A stretch of 64,000 nt of DNA from an uncultured Pseudomonadales bacterium. Lineage in GTDB: Bacteria; Pseudomonadota; Gammaproteobacteria; Pseudomonadales; Azotimanducaceae. Under the pieces are notes generated by a model. That model was not told where the DNA came from, made no database searches, and worked only from the letters and a program-made list of their open reading frames with translations. The stretch spans positions 310,001 through 374,000 of the forward strand of contig CALSMJ010000001.1 of the NCBI GenBank assembly GCA_943787425.1, read 5' to 3'. Each line of letters opens with the position of its first letter. The stretch's first letter is position 1. The position numbers were made by a program, and so were the translations under genes. Shown here in pieces: positions 58,487 through 61,870 of the stretch.

Positions 58487-59818
58487 ATGAACCTGAAACA
58501 TCACAACCTAGTACCCGATAACCTCGACGCCTTCTGGATGCCGTTTTCAGGGCAAAGGCAATTCAAAGAAGACCCGCGTTTTATTGTGTCGGCGAAAGGC
58601 ATGTATTACACCGACAGCCAAGGTCATGAGACGCTGGACGGCAGTGCGGGTCTTTGGTGCGTGAACGCCGGCCACCACCGAGAGCACATCAACGCGGCCA
58701 TTGCGCATCAGCTGGAAAGTCTAGATTTTGCGCACAGCTTTAACTCAGGTCATCCGCTTGCATTTCAGTATGCCAGCCGCCTGGTTAAACATGTGCCGGA
58801 CCCCTTGAACCACGTTTTTTTTACCAATTCCGGATCAGAATCCGTCGATACCGCCTTAAAGATCGCACTGGCTTACCATCGACGCAATGGTGAAGCGGGC
58901 CGTCAACGTCTTATCGGTCGAGAAAAAGGTTATCACGGCATGGGCTTTGGTGGACTCTCCGTCGGAGGCCTTGTCAAAAACCGAAATCCGTTCGGTCTGT
59001 TGTTACCCGGCACCGACCACATGCGTCAAACCCATGGTCTGGCGGGCAATCGGTTTGCAAGAGGCCTGCCGCCAGAAGGCGCAGAACTGGCGATGGACTT
59101 GCAGCGCTTGGTCGAGTTGCATGGCGCCGACGCCATTGCCGCCGTGATCGTTGAGCCGATCGGCGGCGCCGGCGGCGTTCACCTGCCGCCCGTGGGTTAT
59201 CTCCAACGCCTACGTGAGCTCTGTGATGAGCACGGTATTTTGTTGATTTTTGATGAGGTCATAACTGGCTTTGGTCGCACCGGGGCCTGCACGGCAGCCG
59301 AGCGATTTGGTGTCGTGCCGGATATTATGACGACGGCAAAAGGCATTACCAATGCGACCATTCCCATGGGCGGCGTCTTTGTATCCGATGCCATTTTCGA
59401 GCGCTTTATGGACACCGACGTACCCGGCGTCGAGTTGAGTCACGGTTATACTTATTCAGGCCACCCTGTTGCCTGTGCCGCCGGCATGGCAACGCTTGAT
59501 ATCTATGAGCAAGAAGGTCTCTTTGAACGCCCCAAAGCGCTCCAAGACACCTGGCAAGACGCCGCACTGCGCCTCAGCGACCTTCCAAATGTTATCGATG
59601 TCCGGTGCTTTGCCTTGCTCGGCGCGATCGAACTGGCCCCGCTCGACGGCGCACCCATGCAACGTGGCGCAGCGGTTGCGAAACGCTGCTATGAAAAAGG
59701 CGCCTGGGTTCGTCCAATTGGCGACTCATTGGTCTTATCACCACCGCTGATTATTTCGGAAGCCGAAATCGAGCGCATTTTTGAAATTATAGGCGAGGCC
59801 ATCTGCGAGATTGGCTAG
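58487..59818 (+). CDS. Class III omega-aminotransferase (beta-alanine--pyruvate type)
   Basis: 443 aa PLP enzyme. PLP-contact GSESVDTALKIALAYHR, LLIFDEVITGFGRTG with the conserved Asp, and Schiff-base Lys in TTAKGITNATIPMGG. The sequence LDGSAGLWCVNAGHHR near the N-terminus and the YTYSGHPVACAAGMA block are typical of beta-alanine/omega-amino acid:pyruvate transaminases. It moves amino groups from terminal amines to pyruvate. Followed 35 bp later by an SDR that could reduce or oxidise the product (inference). Confidence 0.9.
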   Translation: MNLKHHNLVPDNLDAFWMPFSGQRQFKEDPRFIVSAKGMYYTDSQGHETLDGSAGLWCVNAGHHREHINAAIAHQLESLDFAHSFNSGHPLAFQYASRLVKHVPDPLNHVFFTNSGSESVDTALKIALAYHRRNGEAGRQRLIGREKGYHGMGFGGLSVGGLVKNRNPFGLLLPGTDHMRQTHGLAGNRFARGLPPEGAELAMDLQRLVELHGADAIAAVIVEPIGGAGGVHLPPVGYLQRLRELCDEHGILLIFDEVITGFGRTGACTAAERFGVVPDIMTTAKGITNATIPMGGVFVSDAIFERFMDTDVPGVELSHGYTYSGHPVACAAGMATLDIYEQEGLFERPKALQDTWQDAALRLSDLPNVIDVRCFALLGAIELAPLDGAPMQRGAAVAKRCYEKGAWVRPIGDSLVLSPPLIISEAEIERIFEIIGEAICEIG

Positions 59819-59852: not shown

Positions 59853-60629
59853 ATGAACCTTGCTGGAAAAAACATCGTGATCACTGGCGCAGCCAGCGGC
59901 ATCGGTCGCGCTATGACGCGTCGCTTTGTCGCAGAGGGCGCTCGGAAAATCGTCATTACAGATGTCAATGCCGAGGGCCTTGCCGCCGTCGCTGAGGAGA
60001 CTGGCGCCATTCCCCGAGCCGCCGATCTTGGTGAAGAACAGGCGGTCCTTGATTTCATTGGCTTTGCCGAAACGGAACTCGACCAGATTGATTTGCTTTG
60101 TAACAACGCTGGGATATCCGTCTCCGGTGGACCAGAGGTTGAGACGAGCGACTGGCAAGCGATTTGGAACATTAATGTCATGGCCCATGTCTGGGCAACC
60201 CGCGCCGCCCTGCCTGCCATGCTCGCGCGAGGCGCCGGTTATTTATTGCACACTGCATCCGCCGCGGGCCTGCTCAGCCAAATTGGCTCTGCGCCCTATG
60301 CCGTCACCAAGCATGCCGCCGTTGCCTATGCTGAGTGGCTTGCGATCACTTATGGCGATCAAGGATTAAAGGTTTCTGCACTCTGCCCACAAGCCGTTAG
60401 AACAGCCATGACAGCCGGGCATGAAGATGGTGTTGCATCCGTTGACGGCATGATGGAGCCTGAAACTTTGTGTGATGCGGTGATTGAGACCTTGGCTGCT
60501 GAGTCCTTTTTAGTACTCCCTCATCCGGAGGTCGCGACCTATATTCGGCGCAAAACTGCAGACTACGATCGCTGGCTCACGGGCATGCGACGCCTGCAAA
60601 GTCATTACGGCGAGCCAAGCTGGCCCTAG
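59853..60629 (+). CDS. SDR family oxidoreductase
   Basis: 258 aa from ATG 59853 (MNLAGKNIVITGAASGIGRA). Cofactor motif TGAASGIGRA, CNNAG near residue 85, catalytic Ser in TASAAGLLSQ, YAVTKHAA. It is the paralogue of the SDR at 1676-2488 (shared AEWLAI-YGDQG-LCPQAVRT and a C-terminal RWLTGMRR tail). The upstream aminotransferase suggests it may work on an amino alcohol, aldehyde or ketone. It ends about 150 bp before the metA promoter. Confidence 0.88.
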   Translation: MNLAGKNIVITGAASGIGRAMTRRFVAEGARKIVITDVNAEGLAAVAEETGAIPRAADLGEEQAVLDFIGFAETELDQIDLLCNNAGISVSGGPEVETSDWQAIWNINVMAHVWATRAALPAMLARGAGYLLHTASAAGLLSQIGSAPYAVTKHAAVAYAEWLAITYGDQGLKVSALCPQAVRTAMTAGHEDGVASVDGMMEPETLCDAVIETLAAESFLVLPHPEVATYIRRKTADYDRWLTGMRRLQSHYGEPSWP

Positions 60630-60782
60630 TGAGCGCTATTGGACGAAGGCGGTCTGAGCCGCAGCGGCCGACCGCATGAACCGACGCGTTCTTGCGCGAA
60701 AATTTCGCGACACCATTATCGTACTGATTGTCCAGTTGTCACGACGCGCACGATGCAGGCGTGTTCACTTGTTTACGCTGGC

Positions 60783-60811
60783 TATACACCGCTTCCGAGT
60801 TTGTCTATAAT
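60783..60811 (+). promoter_or_regulatory. Promoter of the metA riboswitch transcript
   Basis: TATACA (60783) and the consensus TATAAT (60806) are 17 bp apart. The predicted start of transcription, about 60818, coincides with the first base of the SAM-II-like stem, which supports both calls. Confidence 0.65.
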
Positions 60812-60817
60812 TTTCCC

Positions 60818-60868
60818 AGCGCCGATTTGAAATCAGCTTGCGGGCGCTTAAAAAATACCGCTAAAGCG
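60818..60868 (+). ncRNA. SAM-II-type riboswitch aptamer upstream of metA
   Basis: Stem AGCGCC (60818-60823)/GGCGCT (60843-60848) encloses GATTTGAAATCAGCTTGC, followed by an A-rich linker and GCTAAAGC at 60860-60867. This matches the known SAM-II layout as I recall it from the marine metX example (GAUUUAA, UUGCAA next to the stem, then a linker and GCUAAA as the pseudoknot strand). SAM binding would stabilise the pseudoknot. The gene controlled, metA, starts methionine synthesis, the usual SAM-II target. Identification is by pattern, not by a covariance search. Confidence 0.75.
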
Positions 60869-60906
60869 TAGAACCTGCTTTAGCGACATGCTACGTGGGT
60901 TTTTTT
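60867..60906 (+). terminator. Attenuator terminator of the metA leader
   Basis: CGTAG (60867-60871) pairs with CTACG (60891-60895), followed by TGGG and seven Ts. A competing 9-bp hairpin, CGCTAAAGC (60859-60867) with GCTTTAGCG (60877-60885), takes the aptamer's GCTAAAGC strand. So SAM-bound RNA would leave the terminator free to form, and free RNA would form the competing hairpin. Switching logic is inferred. Confidence 0.55.
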
Positions 60907-60919
60907 ATGCGAGTACACT

Positions 60920-61870
60920 ATGCCAATTAAGATACCGGATGCGCTGCCCGCATCGGCCGTCCTTCTCCAGGAAAACATTGCCTGCATTGAATCAACTCAG
61001 GCTGAGGTTCAGGATATTCGCGCGCTACGAATATTGATTCTTAACCTGATGCCGCTCAAGATCGAAACCGAAATCCATTTGTTGCGCATGCTCTCGAATT
61101 CACCCTTACAGGTTCAAATCGAATTACTTCGCATTGACGACCGGGCCAGTAAGAACACCCCAAACGATCATATGGTGTCTTTTTATCAACCCTTCGAGGC
61201 CATTAAAAACAACAAGTATGACGGCATGATCATTACCGGTGCGCCCCTCGGGCAAATGGCATTTGAAGACGTCATCTTTTGGCCAAAACTCCAAGAAATA
61301 CTCGACTGGACCGAGACCAACGTCACCTCAACCATGTTTTTATGTTGGGCGGTACAAGCCGCCATGTTCCATTTTTATGGCGTCGATAAACGATTACTTC
61401 CGCAAAAACTCACTGGGGTGTATCCGCACGAAGTCATTCGTCCCCAATCGCCGATTGCCCGCGGCTTTGACGATTACTTTGAAGCGCCTCACTCACGCTA
61501 CGCCGAAGTACCGATCGCCGACATCGAGGCCCAACCCGAGCTCCATATCATTGCGCAGTCAGAGCGTGCTGGCGCTTACTTGTTCGCTCATGAAACCGGC
61601 AAGCACCTGTTCGTCACGGGGCACTCCGAATATGAACCCGACTCGCTTAAGAACGAGTATTTACGCGACCACGCCGCCGGACTCGCCCCTTCTATTCCTG
61701 AGCACTATTTTGTCAATGATGATCCTAACCAGTCCGTCAAAGTAACCTGGAAGAGCCACGGCTCTTTGTTATTTGCTAACTGGCTCAACTATTACGTTTA
61801 TCAGTTATCGCCCTTCGACCTGTCGCAAATTGGTGCTCAACGCATGGTTCCACCAGTCGCATTGGTCTGA
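60920..61870 (+). CDS. metA: Homoserine O-succinyltransferase
   Basis: 316 aa. First committed step of methionine synthesis: homoserine to O-succinylhomoserine. Close to E. coli MetA: RILILNLMPLKIETE, catalytic Cys in MFLCWAVQAAM, His in VTGHSEYEPDSL, and the Glu of that segment. GAPLGQMAF carries Gly at the position that selects succinyl-CoA rather than acetyl-CoA (Glu in acetyl-type enzymes). Under control of the SAM-II-like leader upstream. The next gene follows within 4 bp if its TTG start is used. Confidence 0.93.
   Translation: MPIKIPDALPASAVLLQENIACIESTQAEVQDIRALRILILNLMPLKIETEIHLLRMLSNSPLQVQIELLRIDDRASKNTPNDHMVSFYQPFEAIKNNKYDGMIITGAPLGQMAFEDVIFWPKLQEILDWTETNVTSTMFLCWAVQAAMFHFYGVDKRLLPQKLTGVYPHEVIRPQSPIARGFDDYFEAPHSRYAEVPIADIEAQPELHIIAQSERAGAYLFAHETGKHLFVTGHSEYEPDSLKNEYLRDHAAGLAPSIPEHYFVNDDPNQSVKVTWKSHGSLLFANWLNYYVYQLSPFDLSQIGAQRMVPPVALV

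Follow-up and report, generated by a model that had tools for sequence, protein, structure and literature searches.

The window, as we call the whole 64-kb stretch of DNA analysed here, comes from a marine bacterium and contains metA preceded by a leader with a promoter, an aptamer and two alternative hairpins. The elements of the locus are as follows:

60783-60811, + strand: promoter, with -35 TATACA (60783-60788), a 17-nt spacer and -10 TATAAT (60806-60811); 10/12 consensus
60809-60881, + strand: SAM-II (SAM_alpha) aptamer, Rfam RF00521, 39.0 bits, cut-off 36
60818-60848, + strand: P1 stem, arms 60818-60823 and 60843-60848, whose loop holds the GAUUUGA strand (60824-60830)
60836-60864, + strand: P2 triplex helix (P2b), UUGC (60838-60841) with GC (60860-60861) and AA (60863-60864); U60862 bulged
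60859-60885, + strand: antiterminator (60859-60868/60876-60885), its 5' arm being the putative SAM-binding strand
60870-60906, + strand: predicted intrinsic terminator (60870-60878/60895-60903, inner helix 60881-60884/60890-60893), with seven U at 60900-60906
60920-61870, + strand: metA, homoserine O-acyltransferase, the regulated gene

The metA product was assigned from profile matches and from PDB 7cbe (E 4.3e-110). It scored below the cut-offs of both the succinyl model TIGR01001 (459.8 bits, cut-off 495) and MetA_acetyl (426.5 bits, cut-off 460.5). Records with a MetA 94-96% identical to that of the window are assigned to Pseudomonadales or Gammaproteobacteria, and all are metagenome-assembled. 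Upstream of metA lie a short-chain dehydrogenase gene and, before it, an omega-aminotransferase AptA-like gene (58487-59818; 638 bits, cut-off 500). A small upstream reading frame from an ATG at 60907, overlapping the metA start, was considered and rejected: by eye, the related leader L002 has a stop after one codon and L003 has no ATG. The sequence-only reading had placed the transcription start at 60783, which is in fact the first base of the -35 hexamer. From the positions of the -35 and -10 boxes, the start would be expected near 60818 instead, where P1 begins. A TATAAT/TATACT-like box was likewise seen by eye immediately 5' of P1 in related metA leaders.

The aptamer was identified by a search of all 4227 Rfam families against the whole window, in which RF00521 was the sole family above its gathering score (60809-60881, + strand, E 2.9e-5), with a margin of 3 bits. 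The match ends 38 nt before the metA start at 60920 and thus lies in the leader of a methionine-synthesis gene. A lax search of 60600-61100 (E ≤5) gave four matches, namely RF00521, RF01726, RF02424 and one microRNA. SAM-II long loop (RF01726) reached 17.9 bits against a gathering score of 44 and SAM-V was absent from these four matches, and both identities were rejected. The earlier reading, which had called a SAM-II aptamer before metA and proposed Infernal runs with the SAM-II and SAM-V models, is borne out here. A family-specific model scored the window at 77.4 bits, with the window's own sequence part of its training set. The SAM-II core letters are present as GATTTGA (60824-60830), GCTTGC (60836-60841) and GCTAAA (from 60860); further features are CGCTAAAGC at 60859-60867, GCTTTAGCG at 60877-60885 and seven T at 60900-60906. 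Assignment of P2b in the window was made by analogy with the structure described for SAM-V (PMC6061858).

Folding of the leader yielded two mutually exclusive structures. For the free RNA (60817-60905) the optimum, at -24.7 kcal/mol, consisted of P1 and the antiterminator 60859-60868/60876-60885. Holding CGCUAAAG unpaired, which is only a proxy for the state with SAM bound in the pseudoknot, changed the optimum (-22.1) to P1 and the terminator 60870-60878/60895-60903 with its inner helix 60881-60884/60890-60893, followed by seven U. The two hairpins have GCUUUAGC in common. Blocking the P2 (SAM-binding) strand raised the mean pair probability of the seven outer terminator pairs from 0.17 in the free RNA to 0.99. 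These strand-blocking folds suggest an OFF switch. Free folds of transcripts of increasing length retained the antiterminator when the 3' end lay at 60884-60912 or at 60924. For ends at 60916 and 60920 the optimum contained the terminator hairpin, so the switch depends on timing. A simple terminator scan with a loop limit of 8 did not list the window terminator. The folds, with the strand free and blocked, and the conserved terminator pairing in relatives described below support the transcription-attenuation platform that had been proposed from the sequence. Its two hairpins are longer than stated: the one sequestering the pseudoknot strand has 10 bp including a terminal G-U instead of 9, and the rival stem before the T-run is a 9+4 bp hairpin instead of 5 bp.

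In the mechanism that we propose, RNA polymerase would begin at about 60818. At low SAM, CGCUAAAGC (60859-60867), the pseudoknot strand, would pair with GCUUUAGCG (60877-60885); the antiterminator so formed would take up the 5' arm of the terminator, and metA would be transcribed. When SAM is plentiful, it would tie up CGCUAAAG with UUGC (60838-60841) in the P2 triplex and block the antiterminator. The freed AACCUGC..UAGC could then pair with GCUA..GUGGGUU before the seven U, and polymerase would stop ahead of metA. Termination of the leader transcript in the cell, and SAM as the ligand, are what we infer from this arrangement.

Conservation was examined in relatives of the leader. An alignment of the window with six related metA leaders shows a common core, at 90% mean column identity; it was built without L004, which has no T-run, and L006, which contains an N. 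For a broader comparison 100 gammaproteobacterial loci were used, 80 plus 20 below the cut-off, of which 97 were parsed; 66 distinct loci had the terminator pattern and 29 were without it. Alignment A2 comprises 50 of these 66 loci with the terminator pattern; the other 16, whose platform differs, were omitted, including the host's second copy (L037). Because the rows were preselected by the terminator pattern, the pairing percentages for A2 are valid for the selected type only: 98.0% of cells were paired in P1, 93.2% in the terminator and 87.3% in the antiterminator. Double-sided changes occurred in two pairs of P1, three of the terminator and one of the antiterminator. The outer pair of P1 appeared as AU, CG, GC, UG and UA and was unpaired in 6/50 rows; that of the antiterminator was unpaired in 22/49 sequences. 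Terminator columns 75-108 were paired in 50/50 rows as GC, AU or GU, and column 108 was not fixed by the selection. When partners were slid by 1-3 columns, pairing fell to 26-55% for P1/P2, antiterminator and terminator.

Covariation was counted against shuffled alignments, and the counts are inflated by kinship among the A2 rows. P1 and P2 together had 22 double-changed cells compared to 7.2 in shuffles, and the terminator 21 compared to 2.4. For the antiterminator covariation is weak (12 against 7.2; 23 of 500 shuffles were as high). The letters and pairing of P2 were invariant, with 100% paired in 50/50 rows. Such invariance gives no covariation test, and the pseudoknot therefore rests on the family match. 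The conserved pairing that the sequence-only reading had named as a test in metA leaders of relatives is thus present, with covariation in P1 and the terminator and a weak signal in the antiterminator.

Between the end of the T-run and the metA start codon there are 13 nt, which would also fit a SAM-II aptamer that acts mainly on translation by masking of the ribosome-binding site, with the T-run hairpin incidental. Some relatives' metA leaders (e.g. L039, L047 and L061) keep the aptamer and lack the terminator T-run pattern, the metA SAM-II riboswitch of Sinorhizobium meliloti regulates translation (PMC9373788), and terminators are said to be rare among riboswitches of Pseudomonadota, where only 10% are stated to have them (PMC12452182). 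However, the T-run in the window follows a conserved, covarying hairpin, and a run of at least five T was found within 90 nt of the aptamer in 81 of 98 parsed gammaproteobacterial loci. Moreover, a swap of the terminator for a masking platform found no backing in folds of L061 (0.24 to 0.15 unpaired), L039 and L047, in which no state-dependent masking of the ribosome site was seen. We consider mainly translational control unlikely. The S. meliloti system resembles the present one in having two leaders per genome, before metA and a metZ-type gene, and in the termination model, which was predicted there for metZ. It differs in the translational mode of its metA riboswitch and in the metA terminator, which lies farther downstream between two AUGs and is not predicted to be SAM-responsive (PMC9373788), whereas that of the window directly follows the aptamer.

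The ligand was considered in the light of the distal helix P2a. In the window the best candidate for a distal P2a has 2 pairs. Among the 97 parsed gammaproteobacterial loci, 5 had at least 4 Watson-Crick pairs, compared to about 6 expected from shuffles, so that P2a is not above chance there. In the 30 top-scoring loci from other classes, 19 of 29 parsed had at least 4 pairs (about 11 expected); in a spread of 20 other-class loci it was 5 of 14 parsed, with 29% in shuffles. P2a loss as a sharp contrast with other classes holds in the top-scoring set but fails in the spread set, and the claim is therefore limited to the absence of P2a in Gammaproteobacteria. In SAM-II P2a is described as frequent and not defining, with 5 bp in 60% of cases and 2 bp in the metX RNA that was crystallised (PMC6061858). 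Absence of this usual helix would agree with a riboswitch that has this fold and binds a different ligand or a wider set (SAM-V-like, or SAM/SAH), since SAM-V likewise has a short P2a along with a similar triplex SAM pocket (PMC6061858). SAM-V, on the other hand, acts on translation and possesses a P3, which is absent from SAM-II (PMC6061858); the window gave no match to its model up to E 5, keeps the SAM-II core GAUUUG, UUGC and GCUAA, and the targets in relatives are mostly methionine/SAM synthesis genes. A different ligand thus seems very unlikely. That the leader is no riboswitch at all, and either attenuates constitutively or resembles one by chance, is hardly credible: the RF00521 score is barely over the cut-off, but the E-value, matches in 14/37 genera of the host family and 129/272 sampled genera of the class, the target genes and the covariation all speak against it.

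Taken together, the metA leader is very probably a SAM-II riboswitch that acts as a transcriptional OFF switch. It shares with described SAM-II (RF00521; Corbino 2005, PMC1273637) P1, the GAUUUG strand, the UUGC/GCUAA pseudoknot letters, a methionine target, a near-consensus promoter directly 5' of P1 and an intrinsic terminator. Unlike RF00521, the window has no distal P2a and its antiterminator pairs with the putative SAM-binding strand itself. The earlier reading had recorded a gammaproteobacterial SAM-II as unusual, but such elements have been in print since 2005 (Corbino 2005; Barrick and Breaker 2007; Meyer 2009). A figure legend of Corbino 2005 (PMC1273637) lists Coxiella burnetii, and Meyer 2009 refers to SAM-II in 'Alpha-, Beta- and Gammaproteobacteria'. 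Barrick and Breaker 2007 describe gammaproteobacterial SAM-II as sporadic and perhaps horizontally acquired, and terminator control by SAM-II was already known to them; the text of Leyn 2014 (PMC4239095) gives SAM_alpha as found only in Rhizobiales and Rhodobacterales. The locus adds one further SAM-II case, and both SAM-II in Gammaproteobacteria and terminator control by SAM-II are already in print.

The host genome contains a second RF00521 match (38.7 bits), before a Cys/Met-metabolism PLP enzyme gene (NCBIfam PRK05939, 659.1 bits, cut-off 555). Within the host family Azotimanducaceae, RF00521 was found in 64/206 genomes at E ≤0.001 and above the cut-off in 39/206. For target assignment the longest frame was taken as the downstream gene, a rule that picked the wrong gene in some of the GC-rich loci (by eye for L067 and L082, and in several of family f130), so that counts without a target are upper limits. 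Of 78 parsed loci among 80, 27 preceded metA, 41 metZ/metY-type genes and 3 metK (71/78), and 7 had no assignment. All 27 metA targets come from the host family, which suggests that control of metA expanded locally there; Leyn 2014 (PMC4239095) describes such an expansion for Rhizobiaceae.

Several arrangements were observed beside these. The metK (SAM synthetase) genes preceded by a SAM-II leader are in L075, L088 and L094, assigned by Pfam for L075 and by similarity to L075 for the other two. In L147 the gene after a SAM-II core (1508-1559), at a distance of 286 nt, encodes a LysR-type regulator (1787-2905). Tandem cores occur in L077, L086, L164 and L165, the second core having a diverged P1, and the next long frame in L086 encodes a MoxR-like AAA ATPase. 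Tandem SAM-II is a known arrangement with 44 examples (PMC9481103). One genome, G303, has 5 RF00521 matches and 7 to the model R1 described below. A SAH riboswitch (RF01057, 69.2 bits; L246:156-235, - strand) lies about 1.3 kb from the SAM-II leader in the same stretch.

Across the class, RF00521 at E ≤0.001 matched 118 of 369 sampled Gammaproteobacteria genomes, and only 31/369 above the cut-off; scores in other classes of the phylum reached 88.2 bits. R1, a model of 52 positions trained on 30 host-family sequences only, matched 177/369 of these genomes, its E-values being rough. Twenty RF00521 matches below the cut-off were taken at roughly even steps; 15 stood before metZ, and of the other five, one preceded a LysR-type gene, two were tandem arrangements and two had no assignment. 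Similarly, 17/20 of the strongest matches to R1 in genomes without an RF00521 match (one match at a contig start was omitted) stood before metZ. The short form of SAM-II to which the window leader belongs thus seems to be common in the class, mostly under the Rfam cut-off and frequently overlooked when the standard threshold is used for annotation.

The antiterminator gave a clearer contrast with other classes than P2a. At least 6 pairs of GCUAAAG with the downstream 69-nt stretch were found in 38/49 host-family and 29/48 other gammaproteobacterial loci (together 67/97 parsed), compared to 3/19 parsed of 20 loci from other classes; shuffle rates were 19%, 15% and 8%, respectively, and the loci are related, not independent. 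In Gammaproteobacteria the antiterminator usually pairs with the putative SAM-binding strand.

Two orphan elements were compared with these leaders. R1 also recognises six leaders in family f130 (of the same class, presumably Burkholderiaceae), with scores of 57.5-65.8 bits; for two of the six a metX gene downstream was confirmed. The six are:

L236:501-576: SAM-II-type leader, R1 match
L240:2001-2051: SAM-II-type leader, R1 match
four further loci: SAM-II-type leaders, R1 match

From beta-proteobacteria Leyn 2014 (PMC4239095) describes a metXZ element before metX and metZ, with a pseudoknot and a terminator/antiterminator, and gives its consensus in a figure and supplement only. Judged from target genes and architecture, the f130 leaders are probably this element, and the window leader resembles it in its pseudoknot and terminator/antiterminator and in belonging to the type found before metX and metZ. 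The second element, RF02424 (Bp2_Cand287, Bp2_287, 'Burkholderia sRNA'), is reported upstream of methionine genes (metZ, metX) in most genomes. It matched the window at 60823-60892 on the - strand with 19.1 bits (cut-off 70). In 14 genomes chosen for SAM-II matches, RF02424 matched in 4, none above the cut-off, and three of the four places are antisense to a SAM-II match:

L237:474-623: RF02424 match opposite a SAM-II match, below cut-off
L245:1501-1568: RF02424 match opposite a SAM-II match, below cut-off
L246:1501-1629: RF02424 match opposite a SAM-II match, below cut-off

Part of the RF02424 consensus is the reverse complement of the SAM-II core, and the family may have been built from the antisense strand of a SAM-II leader.

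On balance we think it probable that SAM-II in Gammaproteobacteria, a class taken here as in GTDB with the beta lineages in it, forms a subtype of its own, which may be ancestral. P2a would be lost in it, and the antiterminator would capture the putative SAM-binding strand, pocket and switch being the same seven to nine nucleotides. About half of the genomes would have this subtype, in front of metZ, metX, metA or metK and mostly under the Rfam threshold, and it would be identical with the betaproteobacterial metXZ element and, on the opposite strand, with RF02424. Literature searches found no earlier report of the subtype, of its prevalence or of the metXZ and RF02424 identifications. The window locus provides a clean, testable SAM-II attenuator of metA, with close relatives known from metagenome-assembled genomes. 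The counts (177/369) point to an element that controls methionine synthesis in many members of the class, against the earlier picture of a sporadic or restricted one. If the proposed subtype is real, two orphan elements would be named and a small riboswitch would be at hand in which the ligand-binding strand is itself the switch.
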